From a virus: a stretch of DNA of 28,134 nucleotides. The notes under the pieces are model-generated. The model was not told where the DNA came from. It worked only from the letters and a program-made list of their open reading frames with translations, and ran no database searches. The translations under genes and the position numbers were made by a program. This document shows, piece by piece, positions 1,351 through 19,063 of this stretch. Location of the stretch: the IMG/VR virus record IMGVR_UViG_3300037166_000054, positions 1 to 28,134 of that record; one strand, given 5' to 3'. How positions within the stretch are numbered: position 1 is the stretch's first letter; each line of letters starts with the position of its first letter.

Positions 1351-1379
1351 AGTATAGCACCTTTGGCCTAGAGAATCAA
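1351..1379 (-). promoter_or_regulatory. Sigma70-type promoter with leaderless spacing (left cassette)
   Basis: On the minus strand TTGATT (1379-1374), a 17-bp spacer ending in TGC, and TATACT (1356-1351) are followed by six bases and the ATG at 1344. The transcript would begin at or next to the start codon. The -35 box lies inside the last codons of the terminase gene, so the cassette can be expressed independently of terminase. Confidence 0.7.
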
Positions 1380-4300
1380 ACGAACCCGCCGATGGACACC
1401 GATGCCGGTGATCTCACCGTACGCGGCTGAGCTGGCATCGACCCAGTCATCGTGGGCCGACTTTGCACCGGTCGGGCCAAAGGACCGGAACTCGTCGATA
1501 TACGCCTTGTTCCACTGACCCCTCACCAGGAAACAGTTTCCGGCCCGCTGTTGTGCGGCAAGGGGCTGAGCCCGGGTAACCTTGTCGCCTGAGTCGAGCG
1601 TTGCCTCGACGGCATACCCGGCCAGGATCTTCCTGACCCAGTAGTTCGCCTGCGACTTGCCCGCCTGGCCCGGGTCCTGAGGGATGCGAATCCTCTTGCA
1701 GTGCCACACCTCGGCATCCTCGCGGGCCGTATCGGCGACGAACTGCTCCGTGGCCAATGGGTCCTCTCTCTTGCGCCGGGCATCCACGACGTAGGTGGCG
1801 CCGGTGTCATTATTGACGCCCATCAGCACGCCTGCCGTCCAGTCCGGGTCTCCGCTCGCTTTCTTCACCGTGGCGGCCAGGTCCCAGGAGCGCATCAGCT
1901 TCGTACCGGCGGGTGGCGCGTCGCAATACTGCCACTTCTCCACCGGGAACATATCACCCTTCGGGTTGCTCGGACGCTGCTGGTACTCGGCTCCCCACTT
2001 TTCCTCTTTTAGGGTTTCCATGACCTGGAGCAAGACTTCGCGGTTCCAACGGCCTGGCCAGAGTGCTTCGCCCATCTTGCGCCCCATAGAATCACGCCAC
2101 GTCTCTGTGTCGATCTCCCCTTCTAACTCCGCCTTCGTAGGCTCGGCGAGCGCTGGCAGGTTCAGCGACTCCCACTGGTCGGCCATCGGGTTCTCGGCCG
2201 AAGCAAACTCCATCCGTCCGGCCAGGTCGTCCTCATTCCAGCGCGTGTTATGAACGACAAACCCCTCCGCCACAAAGTTCGCCTCGCCATCAACCGTAAG
2301 ATCGTAGACGTCGAGGATTGGTCCCGGGGTTATCTTCTGAACTCGCTCCAGTCGGACGTCTGGAGGAATCCGTCCGGTCACAAGCGACCGACCCCGTTGG
2401 TCATCCTCGGGCATAACAATAGTCACATGCGAACCCTGAGACCAGACGGGACTCGGACTATTTGGGGGTTGCCGCCAACGACCCTTCTCTGTCCACGGTC
2501 CCGCCGGGCGTGCTCCACAGCAAAGGGCTAGCCGACAAACATCCCCGCAAAGTTCCAGTGAAGACGAAGCTAGCGTCCAGGCGTGACCAATCTTGTCTTT
2601 GTGCCCGTCGGCGTCAAGAAGACCCCGAAGGAATGCCAACTGCGTCTCACCGGGCGCGTCAAAGAGCCACAGGGGTACACGCTTCGCCGGGGCACGAACT
2701 CCAGGGACTAACCCAAGAGCGGTCAGGGTTCTTCCGGCCTCGGCGCTGTCGAGTCGCTGATACCCCTCAGCCAGGTGTGCCTTCGGGCGGCGCCCAAAAA
2801 TCGAGTAGATAAGATCCGCTGCCCTCTCGTTGAGTGTGGCATTCTCGCCTAGCGCCACGAACACGGCCCAAGCGCGAGAATCGTAAACCTTACTGCGGAC
2901 ATGATCTTTGTTGTGCTTTGGCCACGTGGTTACCCAACCATCACCAACCAAATATCCCAACAACCAAGCCCACTCTGGATCGGTCCAACCGTCGACCGGG
3001 GCAGCACCCGACGTCGGGAGAGCCGCAGAAGTCACCACAAGATCGCCAACGGTCAAACTGGCCGCTGGTCGCCATACCGGGGCATAGGCGGGACGAGCGC
3101 GGCCATCAGCGGGCACGACAAGGAAAGGATGGGTTGGCGTAGCTGTGAGCTGATGACGATGAGTCGCAATAGTAATCGTCTCGCCCACACCCGACCTACG
3201 TTGAGCCAAAACCCGACGTCGCGTCAAACCTTCTTCGGAATAGGCATACACCTCGTCACCGGGAACAATCTGCGATATCGGCACCGAACCCTTACCCACA
3301 ACAGGAACAAGAGAATCACCAGCTAGACACATCAGCAGGATGATCGAGCCGCCGGGCTCTAGCCGAGTGCGAAGCGTGCCGAGGTACCAGTCCCACTGCT
3401 TGTTCCGGTAGTCATCGGACTGGCTCTCTTCCCAGCCCTTTACCGGGTCGTCGATCACGATGATGTGGCCGCCCTTGCCAGTGAGCGGGCCGCCCATGCC
3501 GACGGCGCGCATCCCTCCGAGGTGGCCTTGAATGTCCCAGCGGGCAGCGGCCGAGGACGCTGCGGACACCCGGATACCGAACTGCGCCATGCCGTGCTCT
3601 TCCAGCACGTCTCGGGCTTGGCGGCCCCAGGCCGCGGCGAAGTCTGCCTCGTACGAGGTCAGGATGACCTGCTTGTCCGGGAACATCCCCAGGAACCAGG
3701 CCGGGAAGTAGCGTGAGATCAGGAAACTGTTATGGGTCGGGATTAGCTCCCGTCCGACCAAAAACAACCCATCCGGAGCCGCAACCTGGATACACACGCC
3801 GTCCGCGTTGGGCGCCGACTCGATCGACTTGATCCCGATGCGCCGCTTTGTCGGACGACAGATCACCCGCTTCCTCGCCAGGCGACCCTGTGACAACCCG
3901 TCAATCGGAGACCAGCCGACCACATACCGCGTACCCGCGGTCTTGACAGAGTGGCCATTCAACTCGTGTGGCTCGCGAGTATCGGTCTCGGTCCACATCG
4001 ACGCCTTATGCCCGAGCGTGCGCACCAAACACAGGACGTCGTCCATCAGCCGCCGGTCGTGACCGATCACCCGCACGCGGCCGTTGGGATCGACCGAGCC
4101 ATCGCTGTCGACAATGCCCTGCAGAAGTAAACGCCGCTGCCGAACGGAAGACAGCAAGTAGGACTCAGGGATGTGCTTGTTCCTGAGCACCCCTAGAGCA
4201 GAGAGACGCCGCTGCATTCGAGCTGGCGCCGGGTAGTGAACGCCCGTGACTCTATGGACCGCTTCGTTGCTTATCGTGTCACCGTCTGCTTCGATGAAGC

Positions 4301-4907
4301 CAACTAGCTCATCGCGATCGGCCCCCATGGCGATAGTCCCTTTCGCTGCCGTACCGTCACCAAGCCAAAGACCCAGCAGGTAGGGAGCGAGTGGCAGCTC
4401 GGCTTCAGGCATTTCCAGAGCCGCCACGTCGGGAAGCTGGAATCGGGCTCGATCTCCGCTCCAATACTTCTGACGAGCAATCTCCCTGGTCTCCATCGTT
4501 CGCCACCTGTGCCTGCCGCGGTCGTAGACAGTCCACTCGTGATTTGGATGAACATCGACCGTCGATCCGTCGGTCATAACGACCCTCATCTTGGGAGCAC
4601 CGACGTCTACGGGCGACACGGCAACCACTTTGGTGGGCTTGCCTGAAGGACTGAAAACCCTGTCTCCGAGACGAAGATCACCGGCCCGTTTCCACCCCTC
4701 GGAAGTCAGAATATGTGTTCTGACCTGCATTTGTTTACCGTGCCGAGGCGGCATCGAGACCATCAGGAACCGACTGGTCTCGCTGTAGGCGATCTCCGTG
4801 ATCTTCCGATTGACCATGGCCAGATGTTTCGCTGGCACCCATAGACCATTCGAGACGTTCATGGCCAAGTGCGCCGGAGTGAGTGGTACCTCTTCGACGT
4901 CTGGCAT
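1368..4907 (-). CDS. terL: Terminase large subunit interrupted by two LAGLIDADG inteins
   Basis: 1179 aa, of which about 483 are terminase, the usual TerL length. ATPase landmarks: Walker A PPRHGK (residues 53-58) continuing at S394 after intein 1, Walker B IIVIDDP before intein 2, and TRWNEDDLAGR (from T888) after intein 2. The C-terminal nuclease shows RSWDLAAT and DDWVDASSAAYG, acidic residues typical of the RNase H-like fold. It would cut and translocate phage DNA into procapsids with the small subunit encoded immediately upstream (TAG-ATG with no gap). Both insertions fall at ATPase motifs, so TerL should be inactive until spliced. The N-extein start MPDVEEVPLTPAHLAM is supported by the abutting upstream stop. 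Confidence 0.95.
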   Translation of the reverse strand: MPDVEEVPLTPAHLAMNVSNGLWVPAKHLAMVNRKITEIAYSETSRFLMVSMPPRHGKQMQVRTHILTSEGWKRAGDLRLGDRVFSPSGKPTKVVAVSPVDVGAPKMRVVMTDGSTVDVHPNHEWTVYDRGRHRWRTMETREIARQKYWSGDRARFQLPDVAALEMPEAELPLAPYLLGLWLGDGTAAKGTIAMGADRDELVGFIEADGDTISNEAVHRVTGVHYPAPARMQRRLSALGVLRNKHIPESYLLSSVRQRRLLLQGIVDSDGSVDPNGRVRVIGHDRRLMDDVLCLVRTLGHKASMWTETDTREPHELNGHSVKTAGTRYVVGWSPIDGLSQGRLARKRVICRPTKRRIGIKSIESAPNADGVCIQVAAPDGLFLVGRELIPTHNSFLISRYFPAWFLGMFPDKQVILTSYEADFAAAWGRQARDVLEEHGMAQFGIRVSAASSAAARWDIQGHLGGMRAVGMGGPLTGKGGHIIVIDDPVKGWEESQSDDYRNKQWDWYLGTLRTRLEPGGSIILLMCLAGDSLVPVVGKGSVPISQIVPGDEVYAYSEEGLTRRRVLAQRRSGVGETITIATHRHQLTATPTHPFLVVPADGRARPAYAPVWRPAASLTVGDLVVTSAALPTSGAAPVDGWTDPEWAWLLGYLVGDGWVTTWPKHNKDHVRSKVYDSRAWAVFVALGENATLNERAADLIYSIFGRRPKAHLAEGYQRLDSAEAGRTLTALGLVPGVRAPAKRVPLWLFDAPGETQLAFLRGLLDADGHKDKIGHAWTLASSSLELCGDVCRLALCCGARPAGPWTEKGRWRQPPNSPSPVWSQGSHVTIVMPEDDQRGRSLVTGRIPPDVRLERVQKITPGPILDVYDLTVDGEANFVAEGFVVHNTRWNEDDLAGRMEFASAENPMADQWESLNLPALAEPTKAELEGEIDTETWRDSMGRKMGEALWPGRWNREVLLQVMETLKEEKWGAEYQQRPSNPKGDMFPVEKWQYCDAPPAGTKLMRSWDLAATVKKASGDPDWTAGVLMGVNNDTGATYVVDARRKREDPLATEQFVADTAREDAEVWHCKRIRIPQDPGQAGKSQANYWVRKILAGYAVEATLDSGDKVTRAQPLAAQQRAGNCFLVRGQWNKAYIDEFRSFGPTGAKSAHDDWVDASSAAYGEITGIGVHRRVRLIL
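2247..3329 (-). other. Intein 2 of TerL (361 aa, LAGLIDADG endonuclease, Cys1)
   Basis: Residues 527-887 of the precursor. It begins CLAGDSLVPV (Cys1), has the block B motif TPTHPFLV, and carries two dodecapeptides, WLLGYLVGDGW and LRGLLDADGHKD, of a LAGLIDADG homing endonuclease. It ends ANFVAEGFVVHN with +1 Thr of the terminase motif TRWNEDD. All canonical splicing residues (Cys1, block B Thr and His, penultimate His, Asn, Thr+1) are present, so standard splicing is expected. The insertion separates the residues before and inside the conserved TRW motif. Confidence 0.92.
3729..4733 (-). other. Intein 1 of TerL (335 aa, LAGLIDADG endonuclease, apparent Gln1)
   Basis: Residues 59-393. The block A pattern QMQVRTHILTSEGWK aligns with the usual C-L-x-x-x-T-x-I-x-T, but position 1 is Gln. 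Block B is VHPNHEWTV. Endonuclease motifs are LLGLWLGDGTA and LLQGIVDSDGS. It ends LFLVGRELIPTHN, and Ser+1 is the Ser of the Walker A GKS. Without a Cys or Ser at position 1 the normal N-S/O acyl shift is impossible; direct attack by Ser+1 would be required. The insertion splits the catalytic GK|S of the ATPase. Confidence 0.88.
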
Positions 4908-9267: not shown

Positions 9268-9276
9268 AGCCTATCA
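9268..9276 (-). promoter_or_regulatory. Putative leaderless promoter of the 110-aa gene
   Basis: TGA-TAGGCT, 6 bases before the ATG at 9261. The TGA of the extended element is also the stop codon of the helicase gene. The fit to TAnnnT is fair, weaker than the TATAAT promoters. Confidence 0.45.
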
Positions 9277-11748
9277 GGCCGCCTGCTGACGCAGCAACCC
9301 CCGCTCGGCCAGACGAACCAGCAGGTCACCGAGGATGCTGACGCTCTCGCCCATCTCCTTGTTGTCGATGACGGCGTCGATGAGCTGGCGCTTGTCGTCT
9401 ATCAGCTCGACGATGTCTTCCTCGATCGTGTTCGGCGCGATCAGGTAGTGAGCGGTGGCTCCATGGAGATCGTTCACCCGGCCGAAGCAGCGGGCGATTG
9501 ACTGGTCAACGGCGCCGGGTGTCCAGGGGAACTGGACAAAAGCCACGTTGGACGCGGCCGTCAGCGTCAGGGCCTCTGAGGCGGCGGCGATGTTGCCGAC
9601 GAACACCCTGCAGCTGTCATCGGTCTGGAACCGCTCGACGGCGGCGGCCCGGGCCTCGGTGCTGACTCCGCCACGGATCTTGACGGCCTTGTCGCCGTAC
9701 CTCTTGGCCAGGCCCTCGACTACGTCGATGTTCTCGGCGAACAGGAGGATCTTCTTGCCGTTGCCGTCGTCCAGGAAGTCATCGACCCACTGCCAGACGG
9801 CCTCGATCTTGGCATCTGTCGAAGCCCGCTTGAGAGCGCTGATCCGGGCCAGCTGTTCTGCGGCCTGCGAGCGCATCTTCTTCTGCCAGTAGGCGGCGTC
9901 GCCGTCTTCTCCGGCTTCGAGAGCCAACTCCCGAGCCCGGTTGGCGAGGTACTCGATCACGTCGTTCTCCGCCTTGAAATACGCGGCCATCTTCTCGCCT
10001 GCGATATCGAGCGGAGTGGAAGCGTGCTCAACTGCGGGCAGCTCCGTGAACACCTCAGCCTTCGTGCGCCGGATCATACAGCGCGCCCGGAGCAGCTCGT
10101 GCAGCTCTTCGGCGTGGGCGACGCCCGAACCCCGACCGTCCCTCGTGTACCGCTTGATGAAAGCACTGCCGCCACCAAACTCCTCGATGCGACGCATGAC
10201 CGTCAACAGGTTCACCAGCTCCGGGACCCGGTTCGTCACCGGTGTGCCGGACAGGTCCAGGATCATCGCATCCTCCGGGAGTGAGGATGCCAGGTCGGCG
10301 ACCGCACCCGTGCGCTTGACGCTGCAGACGAGCCGGGTCTTTGTGATCTCGTGCCCCATTTTGCAGTGCTTGACGTTCGACCGGATCAGGATGTCGCCAC
10401 ACTCCGGGCAACTGTGCTTGATCCTTCCGTTCTTGATGGCGTGCGCTTCGTCGAGCACCAGAGCCTTGCTGTTCAACGCCTTCAGCTCTTCGACCCGATA
10501 CTGCGCTACGTCGTAGTTAAGAATTGTCACGTCGGCCGGGACATAAGGCTCAGAAGTCGTACCCTTCATGATCCGAACCGTCATCCACGGAAAGAACTTC
10601 TTGATCTCGCCCTTCCAGACCAGCTTCGCCGAGTTCGGGCAGATCACGATGGCCGGGAGAGCTTCGCCAGCAACCAAAGCGACCAGAGCCTCGACCGTCT
10701 TGCCCAGGCCCATCTCGTCGCCCACGATGGTGCGACGCTTGCGGATGATGTAAGCGACTCCGGCCCTCTGGAACGGACGCAGCTCCTGACCGGAAGCAAG
10801 GGCAGGAAGTTCGATCTCTGCGTCCAACGCCCTCGATGCTGCCAGCGATGCCTCGTGCTCGATCCGCTCTGCATCGACCAGGGTGCTGAAACCTTCAGCG
10901 ACTGGGAGGTTCCAGCGGCGGGCGAAGTCCTCGACCTGGAGCGCTTCGTCTGCTGGGAACCGCCAGAAAATCTCGTCTGGCATCCACTTGTGGGTGCCGA
11001 CCTGCTTGACAGCTCCAACCAAAGACATGAAATCCGGGTGCCCGCGAGACCAACGAACCTCGATCCATTTGCCGTCTTCGCTGAACCTGATCCCGTCCGG
11101 GCCGGTGCTGGTCACTGGAGCAGGCGGGAGGGTCGCGTCGTCGAGTGCCTCGATAGCCGGGTCAACGGCAAAACCACGATTCTTCGCGACTTCCAGAACG
11201 GCTGCCTTGCCATACAGCGGAACGAACCACGTCTTATCGGCCAAGCCGAAAGCATACGGGCCGTACTTCCGCCCGTCGATGGCCTTGATCTCCGCCATGA
11301 CCGTCTCGTTGTACGGCCACCGGCACTCGATCCAGTCAGTGCCACCGACATTGGTCAACTTCATCGACCGACCGGCCACGTGGGCGGCGGACTTTCCACT
11401 AAGGCGCTCGGCCTCTTCGGCTTCCATCTTGACCTTGTAGCGGTCGATCGCGTACTCGCTCAACTCCAACTCAGTGAGGATGATGCCGCCCCGGGCCAGC
11501 TGGCCCTTGTAGCGATTGACGAGCATCCGGGCTCCGACGATCATCGGCGGTGTCCAGGTCTCGGGCAACGTCTGGGCCAGAGCGTGGCCGGTACCGGTGT
11601 CCGCCTGGCTGAAGCCGACATCGTTCTGCTCGCGGGCGCGGTCCGCGTCGTAAGAGGTCAGGTAGGCGATGGCGTCCCAGAGCTGCTTGACCTGGGCCGA
11701 AGTGAGAACGGCGTCTGGCGCCAAACTCGTAGTGTCGGTCGTGGTCAT
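9274..11748 (-). CDS. SNF2/SMARCAL1-like DEAH helicase with two HARP-like repeats
   Basis: 824 aa. Start set at ATG 11748, 6 bases after TATAAT; a further ATG ten codons upstream would put the promoter inside the gene. Residues 138-190 and 228-280 are a diverged tandem pair (WIECRWPYN and WIEVRWSRG, each followed by a W-x-x-P or F-W-R-F-P segment) resembling the HARP domain of annealing helicases. The ATPase core has GDEMGLGKT (343-351) and LDEAH (432-436), a zinc-binding insertion with C447, C450, C462 and H466, and the arginine-finger segment QSIARCFGRVND. It probably remodels replication or recombination intermediates beside the ERF and helicase genes. Confidence 0.9.
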   Translation of the reverse strand: MTTTDTTSLAPDAVLTSAQVKQLWDAIAYLTSYDADRAREQNDVGFSQADTGTGHALAQTLPETWTPPMIVGARMLVNRYKGQLARGGIILTELELSEYAIDRYKVKMEAEEAERLSGKSAAHVAGRSMKLTNVGGTDWIECRWPYNETVMAEIKAIDGRKYGPYAFGLADKTWFVPLYGKAAVLEVAKNRGFAVDPAIEALDDATLPPAPVTSTGPDGIRFSEDGKWIEVRWSRGHPDFMSLVGAVKQVGTHKWMPDEIFWRFPADEALQVEDFARRWNLPVAEGFSTLVDAERIEHEASLAASRALDAEIELPALASGQELRPFQRAGVAYIIRKRRTIVGDEMGLGKTVEALVALVAGEALPAIVICPNSAKLVWKGEIKKFFPWMTVRIMKGTTSEPYVPADVTILNYDVAQYRVEELKALNSKALVLDEAHAIKNGRIKHSCPECGDILIRSNVKHCKMGHEITKTRLVCSVKRTGAVADLASSLPEDAMILDLSGTPVTNRVPELVNLLTVMRRIEEFGGGSAFIKRYTRDGRGSGVAHAEELHELLRARCMIRRTKAEVFTELPAVEHASTPLDIAGEKMAAYFKAENDVIEYLANRARELALEAGEDGDAAYWQKKMRSQAAEQLARISALKRASTDAKIEAVWQWVDDFLDDGNGKKILLFAENIDVVEGLAKRYGDKAVKIRGGVSTEARAAAVERFQTDDSCRVFVGNIAAASEALTLTAASNVAFVQFPWTPGAVDQSIARCFGRVNDLHGATAHYLIAPNTIEEDIVELIDDKRQLIDAVIDNKEMGESVSILGDLLVRLAERGLLRQQAA

Positions 11749-11754
11749 GCCTAC

Positions 11755-11763
11755 ATTATAGCA
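11755..11763 (-). promoter_or_regulatory. Extended -10 promoter (TGC-TATAAT) of the SNF2 helicase
   Basis: TGC-TATAAT ends 6 bases before ATG 11748, and a leaderless mRNA is predicted. It lies between the helicase and the upstream DnaB/RepA-like gene, allowing separate expression of the downstream half of the replication block. Confidence 0.75.
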
Positions 11764-11785
11764 CGAATCGGCGTCCATAGCTAGC

Positions 11786-13078: not shown

Positions 13079-13978
13079 CTACCAAACCTCTTCGGGTGGG
13101 TCAATGGCCGCCGCGGCGCGCACCTCATCCCAGTTAGGCTCCTTACCGCTGGAGTCAACTTCGGAGTTGTCTACTGCCTGAGAACGCGAGCGGTCTCTGC
13201 TCGCACACCGCACCCAGTTGCTTGCGAGCGCCATGGCCGTCACGAGGGTACCGGGCGGCATGACCTTCGTGTAGTTCTCAGCCCGGCGCCGGATCTCGGC
13301 TGGAGCCACTGCCCCATCCGATTCCAGGATCAGCTTCTTGGCGGTTGCGATCTTAGCTGCCTCAGCCTTGTTCGGCTTCGTGCTCCCGTTCTCCGCGAAT
13401 CCTTCGATCTCCGCTAGAGCATCGAAGATCAGATCTCTCCCCCGCGCCCGCGGCGCCGAAGGCGTCGCAATAGAGTCTGTAGAGATTTTCTTTAACTCTA
13501 ACTTTTTCTCTGTTCTTAAGTTCTTCTGTTCTCTACTCTCTGTACTCTGTACTCTTGCATTGGGTTTTGCATTGCCCTTTGCATCTTTACCCCATCTGAC
13601 CTCGGCGGCTTCCCGTCCTCTTGCGCTCTTCGCGGCAATGATTTCGGCGGAATCGTTCCAGTCAAACCATCCGCGTAAAGTGCACGGACTGAAGGTACTT
13701 CTCCACGCTTTCCGATCTTCGATGTAGCTGCCATCAGCGTCGAGCAACAGGCCCGCAGCTATCAGCTCATCGCTGGGATCGTTTCCGTTCGACCTCAACA
13801 GCAGAGGGCTGACCAGGACTTCCAGCTGTCCTCGCGTGAGTGATCCATTGGTCAGGTGCTTCTTGCTGAAGGCGAGACACTTCAGCCAGAGGGACTGAGC
13901 TTCAGCCGTAATGTCAGCTCCGTCGGTCTCCCAGAAGTCAACATCGACCGCAATCCAGAGCCGGTCTTGCTTTGCCAT
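13079..13978 (-). CDS. Replication initiator / replisome organiser
   Basis: 299 aa. Residues 1-120 resemble the N-terminal winged-helix domain of phage replication initiators (LWIAVDVDFWETDGADI, then SLWLKCLAFSKKHLTNGSLT and LLLDADGSYIEDRKAW). A lysine- and glutamate-rich linker (about 130-170) is encoded by AT- and purine-rich DNA with a 12-bp triple repeat. The C-terminal part (GRDLIFDALAEIEGF onward) looks like a DnaD or partner-binding domain with helices. Position directly before the helicase gene fits a helicase-loading initiator. The leader is transcribed from TGA-TATACT at 14052-14060 and carries a phased TGCC array. The ribosome site is weak (GGTGG, 6 bases upstream). Confidence 0.75.
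   Translation of the reverse strand: MAKQDRLWIAVDVDFWETDGADITAEAQSLWLKCLAFSKKHLTNGSLTRGQLEVLVSPLLLRSNGNDPSDELIAAGLLLDADGSYIEDRKAWRSTFSPCTLRGWFDWNDSAEIIAAKSARGREAAEVRWGKDAKGNAKPNARVQSTESREQKNLRTEKKLELKKISTDSIATPSAPRARGRDLIFDALAEIEGFAENGSTKPNKAEAAKIATAKKLILESDGAVAPAEIRRRAENYTKVMPPGTLVTAMALASNWVRCASRDRSRSQAVDNSEVDSSGKEPNWDEVRAAAAIDPPEEVW
13468..13584. repeat. Possible origin: three 12-bp direct repeats plus AT-rich, strand-skewed tract inside the initiator gene
   Basis: TTGCAT occurs at 13555, 13567 and 13579, spaced exactly 12 bp. The adjacent 13468-13554 is strikingly AT-rich and almost all pyrimidine on the plus strand, unlike the surrounding 60% GC DNA. Iterons followed by an AT-rich element within an initiator gene is the arrangement of lambda ori in gene O. 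GCATTGCC here (13569-13576) recurs at 14061-14068 beside the other repeat array. Origin function is inference. Confidence 0.5.
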
Positions 13979-13982
13979 TTTA

Positions 13983-14068
13983 TGCCACCCTTTTTGCCAA
14001 CCGTATGCCGTTACCTATGCCAACCGTATGCCGTTACCTATGCCAAGCGCAAGTATATCAGCATTGCC
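13983..14068. repeat. Array of TGCC sites phased at 11-12 bp, including a 23-bp perfect tandem repeat
   Basis: A 23-bp unit is exactly duplicated at 13995-14017 and 14018-14040. Within it, TGCC starts at 13983, 13995, 14006, 14018, 14029 and 14041 (steps of 12, 11, 12, 11, 12), with a further site at 14065, two steps on. All sites face the same side of the helix. The array lies between the initiator promoter and its start codon. It fits iterons of a replication origin or an autorepression operator bound by the initiator. Confidence 0.75.
14052..14060 (-). promoter_or_regulatory. Extended -10 promoter of the replication initiator
   Basis: TGA-TATACT on the minus strand. No good -35 is seen. 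Transcription would start near 14045 and leave a leader of about 65 bases made almost entirely of the phased repeat array. Confidence 0.55.
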
Positions 14069-14086
14069 AACCGCATGGTCTGCATC

Positions 14087-14869
14087 CTAGAACGGCTCGG
14101 CGAGAGGATCAGCTGCCGGAGCAGGCGTGTGCACGACACCTGGCGCCGCCGTCGGGGTGGCCTGCCGGGCCCGGGCAGCGGCGAGGATCGCCCTGACCTC
14201 TGCGACCTGTTCGGGCGTCTCCGGGAAGTTCACCTTTGCCTCACGGCGCCAGCGGACGTACTCCGGCATAGCACCGGCCTCATTCAGCGCCGTGATCATC
14301 CCGTCAAACTTCCCACCCTGGCCTGGTTTCCCGGCAGCCGTGTCGGGTTTTCCCGACGATGCTACGGTGTCCGGATTTCCCGACTTCTGCGTTTCTTGTG
14401 CACTTGTCCGGTTTTCCGGACGCCGCTGTCCTGTTCCGTGACCAAACGCCTGGGCCGCCCGGCCATCGTCATCCTCTTCGGCCTGCAACCCGAGAGCCGC
14501 TTTGTAGGCGTAGCGCTGGGCGTACGTGATTGCCGAGCCGTGGGCCTGCGGAGCTTCCTTCGCCAAGAACAACCGCATCGTGCCTTCGAGCCACTCGCCG
14601 CTCTCGTGCATGACTCGGGTGGACAGGACGTTGTGGCTCTCCTCCCACTCCGGCATCTGGCTGACCGCTAGACCGTTGGCCGAGAGGATCGGCTGGACCA
14701 CTGCCTTGATGTCGTCGAGGTCGGCGTACTTGTACTCGTAGCTGTAATCCCTCCCGCCTTGGGTTTTACCTTCGATCTTGCCGGTCTTAGTTTTCGGGAT
14801 GACGGGGAACTCTCCCTGCGCCTTGGCGAGGGCGGCGGCCAGGTGGCCTTGAGCTTCTGAGGATCGCAT
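14087..14869 (-). CDS. ERF-family single-strand annealing recombinase
   Basis: 260 aa. Residues 1-136 match ERF proteins: an N-terminal helix (HLAAALAKAQGEF), DYSYEYKYADLDDIKAVVQP, and the hallmark GSAITYAQRYAYKAALGL (111-128) followed by EDDDG. The rest is a flexible linker with repeated G-x-PDT segments (SGNPDT, SGKPDT) and a short conserved-looking C-terminal region with PEYVRWRREAKVNFPETPEQ. ERF proteins anneal complementary single strands in phage recombination and circularisation. The start lies 6 bases after a TAGACT box overlapping the stop of the zinc-ribbon gene. Confidence 0.9.
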   Translation of the reverse strand: MRSSEAQGHLAAALAKAQGEFPVIPKTKTGKIEGKTQGGRDYSYEYKYADLDDIKAVVQPILSANGLAVSQMPEWEESHNVLSTRVMHESGEWLEGTMRLFLAKEAPQAHGSAITYAQRYAYKAALGLQAEEDDDGRAAQAFGHGTGQRRPENRTSAQETQKSGNPDTVASSGKPDTAAGKPGQGGKFDGMITALNEAGAMPEYVRWRREAKVNFPETPEQVAEVRAILAAARARQATPTAAPGVVHTPAPAADPLAEPF

Positions 14870-18340: not shown

Positions 18341-19063
18341 GAACTGTGCCGGAACCTGGGCCGTGATCGCGGCTGGGGCGGACAGACTTGACGGGTGGCG
18401 CGTGCCGAAATAGATCGACACAAACAAAGAGGCGGCGAAGATGACCGCCATGATGACCGCCACGACGACGGCCCACGACTTCTCAATACCCATCGACTTG
18501 CCAGCTCCCTGCGCCTGGGCACCCAAAAGCATAGCGTACTTGTCCTCTAGCCGTTTGACGTCCGCAGCGTTTATAATCCTCGTACTTTCAAGACGTTCCT
18601 CTAGAGCTTTGTGGACTGTTGCGATGTTCGCAGCGATTAAAGTCCCCAGACTTTCAAGACGTTCCTCTAGAGCTTTGTGGACTGCTGAGTACTCAACCCG
18701 TGGCATGAACGTACCAGCCTGGTCTGCTAGTTGGCCCCTAAACTCGTTGACTGACTCGAACCGTTTCTCGGCAGCCGCTTCTGCTTTAGCCACGGCCCTG
18801 TCGGCCGCGACGAGCGCTGCAGTCACTGCTTTCTCTGCCGCCTGCAAGGCCACCTGGACGGACTTCTCGTTGAGCTGGATGACACCAGTCAGCCGTTCGT
18901 CCACCGCTCTAATCCGAGCCGTCGCTATTTCCTCTACGGAAGCTATCCGATCTGTCACCCGTAAGTTAAGCGCACTAACCTCCGCTGCCAGTACCAGAGC
19001 AGCGGCGTCGGTGGCATCTAGCTGCTTGCCATTTGCCTTTTCTCTCTCTTCACCCGGGGTCAT
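18326..19063 (-). CDS. Coiled-coil protein with C-terminal membrane anchor
   Basis: 245 aa. Residues 10-185 are charged, alanine-rich helix of coiled-coil character (EKAVTAALVAADRAVAKAEA). Two identical VHKALEERLES segments lie 22 residues apart, from a DNA duplication. A single hydrophobic segment, WAVVVAVIMAVIFAASLFVS (about 196-217), is preceded by positively charged residues and followed by a short polar tail. The layout fits a tail-anchored membrane protein. Its position directly downstream of the lysin and a small gene suggests a lysis role (holin or spanin-like), but no family motif proves it. Its ATG overlaps the upstream stop. Confidence 0.6.
   Translation of the reverse strand: MTPGEEREKANGKQLDATDAAALVLAAEVSALNLRVTDRIASVEEIATARIRAVDERLTGVIQLNEKSVQVALQAAEKAVTAALVAADRAVAKAEAAAEKRFESVNEFRGQLADQAGTFMPRVEYSAVHKALEERLESLGTLIAANIATVHKALEERLESTRIINAADVKRLEDKYAMLLGAQAQGAGKSMGIEKSWAVVVAVIMAVIFAASLFVSIYFGTRHPSSLSAPAAITAQVPAQFLSQA
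18584..18684. repeat. Perfect 35-bp direct repeat, 66 bp apart, inside the coiled-coil gene
   Basis: Copies at 18584-18618 and 18650-18684 are identical. Similarity weakens into flanking bases (GCAGCG recurs upstream of each). The 66-bp period is 22 codons, two hendecads, so the duplication lengthens the coiled coil without breaking its register. Confidence 0.85.

Follow-up and report, generated by a model that had tools for sequence, protein, structure and literature searches.

In a 28,134-base virus record, an incomplete fragment whose whole length is referred to here as the window, the leader of a predicted replication initiator gene carries an array of GGCATA half-sites that run head to tail, 11-12 bp apart, from above a -10-like element to the ribosome-binding site and across the probable transcription start. 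We tentatively favor, at a little short of an even chance, the interpretation that this array is a promoter-overlapping operator of a phage replication operon. A DNA-binding protein would fill the half-sites one after another, and the filled array would block transcription and thus limit production of the initiator. The binder would most plausibly be the winged-helix initiator itself, which perhaps carries half of the likelihood given to the operator, or a phage regulator encoded outside the fragment.

The array lies in a gap of 108 bp between the first two of the following genes:

14087..14869, minus strand: Erf-family single-strand annealing protein gene (erf), upstream neighbor of the initiator gene
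13079..13978, minus strand: predicted replication initiator, 299 aa
11786..13066, minus strand: DnaB-like / AAA_25 helicase gene, 426 aa, the partner of the initiator in relatives too
9274..11778, minus strand: SNF2-type helicase gene

The DnaB-like helicase gene directly follows the initiator gene in the same direction and, as part of the operator interpretation, the initiator, the DnaB-like helicase and the SNF2-type helicase most likely constitute the replication operon of the phage. The designation of the 299-aa gene as an initiator, made in the initial annotation, was upheld by matches to phrog_1882 (1.2e-6) and phrog_2447 (replication initiation protein; 6.2e-5), both with modest scores, by the DnaB-like neighbor and by structure prediction; taken together, these matches and the model indicate that the gene very probably encodes a replication initiator. 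Residues 22-109 were predicted to form an N-terminal winged helix, with a helix-strand-helix-helix-strand-strand order across residues 25-101 at a pLDDT of about 62-83, and the rest of the model was poor. The best viral fold matches of the predicted model were phage HTH, DUF1376 and replisome organiser proteins; a Pfam search of the protein returned no match, and PDB fold and sequence searches returned nothing significant. The initiator is the sole strong DNA-binding candidate recognized in this incomplete fragment, and no other candidate regulator was recognized among the small ORFs scanned in the window.

Another virus record (IMGVR_UViG_3300037359_000094), which stops short of the leader, encodes a protein 100% identical to the end of the SNF2 gene product and probably represents this phage in a different sample. 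Elsewhere in the window, the terminase large subunit gene (1368-4907) contains two apparent in-frame inteins with LAGLIDADG, Hom_end and Intein_splicing matches; the first splits the Walker A motif (PPRHGK / SFL), appears by eye to be without Cys at position 1, and has residues resembling those of class 3 inteins.

Within the leader, we delineated the following elements:

14064..14077, minus strand: diverged further copy of the repeat, CATGCGGTTGGCAA, upstream of the -10 element
14052..14060, minus strand: extended -10-like element, TGATATACT, read by eye and putatively part of a promoter
13995..14046, minus strand: exact tandem repeat with a period of 23 bp, 2.3 copies, score 104
13988..13992, minus strand: putative ribosome-binding site with the sequence AAGGG, 9 nt ahead of the ATG, read directly
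13983..13986, minus strand: last of the listed TGCC/GGCA sites toward the start codon, 12 bp away from the core

TGCC on the plus strand, which is GGCA on the coding minus strand, occurs at 13983, 13995, 14006, 14018, 14029, 14041 and 14065, exactly where the initial annotation had placed its seven sites, with steps of 12, 11, 12, 11, 12 and 24 bp and a mean step of 11.6 bp. An eighth TGCC at 13973, 10 bp from 13983, overlaps the first two codons of the initiator gene. In 100 dinucleotide shuffles, no tetramer recurred seven times in succession at steps of 10-13 bp, and the longest such run was five; the longest run of any other tetramer in the window is four, and a search for further phased TGCC arrays found none elsewhere in the 28-kb window. 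Over 120 bp, repetition in the window peaks in a different place, among dense repeats at 18561-18700 within a 245-aa ORF, which are probably a coding repeat.

Five of the seven sites (13995, 14006, 14018, 14029 and 14041) sit within the exact tandem repeat, whose 23-bp minus-strand unit, TTGGCATAGGTAACGGCATACGG, is made up of two half-units, GGCATAGGTAAC and GGCATACGGTT. This raises the possibility, which we regard as the most serious alternative and yet an unlikely one, that neutral slippage copied a 23-bp segment of the leader and that the likeness of the half-units and the outer sites reflect earlier slippage or chance. The two complete copies show 100% identity across 52 bp, as expected of a recent duplication, and such a duplication suffices to produce the five sites; moreover, the likeness of the half-units is modest beyond GGCATA/GGT and is rare only at the level of about 1% (23 of 2000 shuffles were as good). 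Against slippage, the copy at 14064-14077 matches at 13 of 14 positions, a similarity that none of 5000 shuffled flanks equaled, and no other 14-base stretch of the window reaches even 12 of 14. It lies 24 rather than 23 bp from the array. Since this copy is diverged and cut off from the core by the -10-like element, the pattern is evidently older than the exact duplication, and slippage would also have to explain why the array coincides with a promoter-like element and has no counterpart in the rest of the window. The proposal that the order of the sites exceeds what the 23-bp duplication explains was accordingly overstated with respect to the five sites that derive from that duplication, and it retains the support of the diverged copy and of the half-unit likeness; the site at 13983 contributes weakly, because only 4-6 bases match there and it adjoins the ribosome-binding site.

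The sites had also been said to face one side of the DNA, which proved to be false. At 10.5 bp per turn, they stand at 0, 51, 69, 120, 137, 189 and 291 degrees with a phase coherence of 0.31, and coherence is greatest for a period of 11.6-11.7 bp, a value that differs from the helical repeat of B-DNA. A mean step of 11.6 bp turns each successive site by about 38 degrees, so that adjacent sites are near in angle and the ends of the six-site run are opposed; with the sixth site 189 degrees from the first, the sites do not share one face. Whole B-DNA turns between sites, as in a helically phased operator, are thus absent from this array.

The favored operator interpretation draws on the position of the array, which is unique in the window and covers the extended -10-like element together with the transcription start that this element would give near 14045, and on the presence of origin-like features in other parts of the window. 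TATACT occupies 14057-14052 on the minus strand, which leaves six sites between it and the start codon, where the initial annotation had placed all seven, and puts the seventh (14065) upstream of the -10. Several observations weigh against an operator: no -35 for 14052..14060 was recognizable by eye, a consensus promoter scan reported no promoter at the leader, and, as detailed below, two homologous loci are without the array and the leaders of relatives are without iteron-like words. Winged-helix proteins such as BldC and RdfS form head-to-tail oligomers on promoters (PMC11963761), and the arrays of BldC, lambda Xis and RdfS resemble the present one in that repeats of a single orientation cover a promoter, with each protomer taking about one turn (PMC11963761). 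They differ from it in that the spacing here is 11.6 bp on average and the binder here is a proposed one.

Subsequently, we sought relatives of the leader and of the initiator. An exact search with the repeat unit found no match in viral contigs, and a search of viral contigs for the GGCATA array pattern gave a single match (L052), which was rejected as an unrelated low-complexity repeat. Peptide and DNA searches of viral contigs, phages and genomes for sequences directly related to the 299-aa protein or its leader retrieved none except one contig, L072 (met again as L133). An Erf search yielded 42 loci, in which the neighboring genes were absent. Alignment of the neighboring helicase identified 80 viral loci and 79 loci in bacterial genomes, the latter mostly Actinomycetota. 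The same pairing of initiator and helicase genes was found in Gordonia, Arthrobacter and Pseudanabaena phages, and the gene at the initiator position is annotated as a replication initiation protein or a RepA-like replication initiator, or, in the Pseudanabaena phage Pam4, as a hypothetical protein. Among the closest helicase relatives (61% identity), the initiators (L053:2707-3480 and L054:294-1049) have a different N-terminal domain; the DNA-binding part is swapped and the helicase kept.

The initiators of L072 and of a second locus, L074, are homologous to the 299-aa protein, with about 26-27% identity (26% when aligned over residues 1-172) and 22% identity, respectively, and a shared MAK..R..DV start. 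The L072 protein matches phrog_270 (replication initiation protein) at 3.9e-16, and that of L074 likewise matches PHROG replication initiation families. The array is absent from both leaders. Retention of the gene without the phased sites is what the initial annotation had named as counting against a role in initiator binding, and both relatives are too distant to decide the matter.

To place the array within its group, we surveyed repeats in the 77 relatives in which the initiator ORF is clear. A tandem repeat score of at least 50 in the 200-bp leader was seen in only 2 of the 77 (L115 and L181), and many of them carry in-gene repeats of 22-24 bp that are often palindromic. When repeated 8-base words per 120 bp were compared between the densest stretch of the gene and the leader, all 77 relatives were denser in the gene, a count that favors the gene as the longer of the two and that comes from mutually related loci rather than 77 independent cases. 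The window was the sole exception among the 78 loci, with 25 words in the leader versus 6 in the gene, which makes the position of the array unusual for its group: the array is ordinary in kind and atypical in position. Furthermore, in the 53 loci with strong in-gene repeats, leaders showed no excess over control DNA of words in common with the in-gene iterons (p = 0.98), which means that the family does not as a rule autoregulate through copies of its iterons. The suggestion that the array serves autoregulation therefore stands insofar as an array over a promoter fits a regulatory site and finds no backing in the behavior of the relatives.

Several relatives point to an origin within the initiator gene. 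The Pam4 initiator gene contains three 23-bp palindromes at 23-25-bp spacing (L048:3396-3466), likely an unannotated origin of that phage, and five Actinomycetota prophage initiator genes (L137, L139, L168, L176 and L204) carry several iteron-like repeats followed by an AT-rich stretch, an arrangement suggestive of a general plan for in-gene origins. Comparable elements of the window are as follows:

13476..13525, minus strand: highest AT content (72%) among the 50-bp stretches sampled across the record, within the initiator gene; putative DNA unwinding element
13555..13584, minus strand: 12-bp repeat, GGGCAATGCAAAACCCAATGCAAG, 2.5 copies, adjoining the AT-rich stretch; weak candidate for in-gene iterons
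14342-14357, 14369-14384 and 14406-14421, minus strand: three 16-bp palindromic sites inside erf, consensus GTCSGGAAWWCCSGAC; candidate origin iterons

The candidate unwinding role of 13476..13525 is suggested by the position of such stretches in the relatives: the AT peak of the initiator gene is centered at nt 468 in the window, 466 in L072 and 567 in L074, and the 400-500 bin is the fullest among the relatives. That the erf palindromes occupy two different codon phases speaks for a role at the DNA level, and a nearly identical palindrome motif occurs five times in the L204 initiator gene. Their plan resembles that of the lambda O sites. Of a lambda-type origin, in which iterons precede an AT-rich stretch within the initiator gene, the window shows the AT peak at nt 468 with a weak adjoining 12-bp repeat of 2.5 copies, and its strong palindromes are in erf instead.

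It is also conceivable, although improbable, that the array comprises origin iterons moved to the leader, as in many plasmids, where the initiator would bind and load the helicase. The reversed word density of the window among the 78 loci fits such a move, as do the 23-bp period, which falls within the 22-24-bp unit lengths that many in-gene iteron sets show, and the restriction of GGCAATGC within the window to two places, the leader copy and the in-gene repeat. An iteron origin has several same-orientation repeats of one site, which the array supplies with its 2.3 exact copies and the diverged one, and an AT-rich unwinding element beside them, which the array lacks: the leader is about 44-52% AT, and the 72% AT peak lies about 460-510 bp away, within the gene. 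Moreover, the iterons of the relatives are often palindromic and beside AT-rich DNA, whereas the array is head to tail; the erf palindromes are the better match to the iteron pattern; and GC skew, whose minimum the initial annotation had proposed comparing with this location, shows neither a minimum nor a turn there. These features, together with the absence of the array from L072 and L074 and the greater repeat density inside the genes of relatives, weaken the earlier proposal that the array is the replication start, and the in-gene AT-rich stretch, the erf palindromes or both are more probable start points of replication than the array.

The theta plasmid iteron origins of RK2, F, P1 and R6K share with the leader short direct repeats, of 17-22 bp, near the initiator gene, and initiators with winged-helix domains (PMC4980987). 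Unlike them, the array has no adjoining AT-rich unwinding element and repeats half-units every 11-12 bp, and the strong AT-rich element of this phage lies elsewhere, in the gene. The lambdoid origin lies in the middle of O (PMC7466680); the initiator gene of this phage likewise holds an AT-rich stretch, and those of relatives hold iterons and AT-rich DNA, whereas the leader array is non-palindromic and lies outside the gene, away from the AT-rich stretch. In the RepA prophage origins of the mycobacteriophages Miko, Rachaly and Jeeves, an actinophage initiator also has a cis origin presumed to be in or next to its gene, and the minimal Miko segment is repA with 171 bp upstream (PMC7157519). In contrast to the present case, the authors found no repeated motifs, and those RepA proteins are of plasmid type, serve prophage maintenance and are dispensable for Miko lytic growth (PMC7157519).

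A scheme combining the two roles, in which an initiator-binding array was moved or duplicated onto the promoter and one filament both shuts the promoter and nucleates firing at the AT-rich element about 460 bp downstream, appears more doubtful still. We know of no initiator of this kind that forms filaments like those of BldC or RdfS. Adjacent 23-bp units are separated by 2.2 turns, a spacing that would permit cooperation without demanding it; iteron cooperativity is lost with sites half a turn apart (review PMC4980987). Least of all do we expect the repeats to act in the 5′ untranslated RNA through protein binding or structured translational control: most copies would lie within the transcript leader and reach the ribosome-binding site, but one is upstream of the -10 and outside the expected transcript, the leader folds no better than shuffles (z +1.2) and has no Rfam match, and the lack of a fold, with periods of 23 and 11 that are not multiples of 3, disfavors an RNA-structure or peptide role.

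If the array binds the initiator, as the operator interpretation allows, it would provide a compact link between the level of the initiator and the onset of replication in actinobacterial-type phages with unmapped origins. The comparison also points to a wider result: many helicase-paired prophage initiator genes carry in-gene iteron-like repeats, often palindromic, beside an AT-rich stretch.
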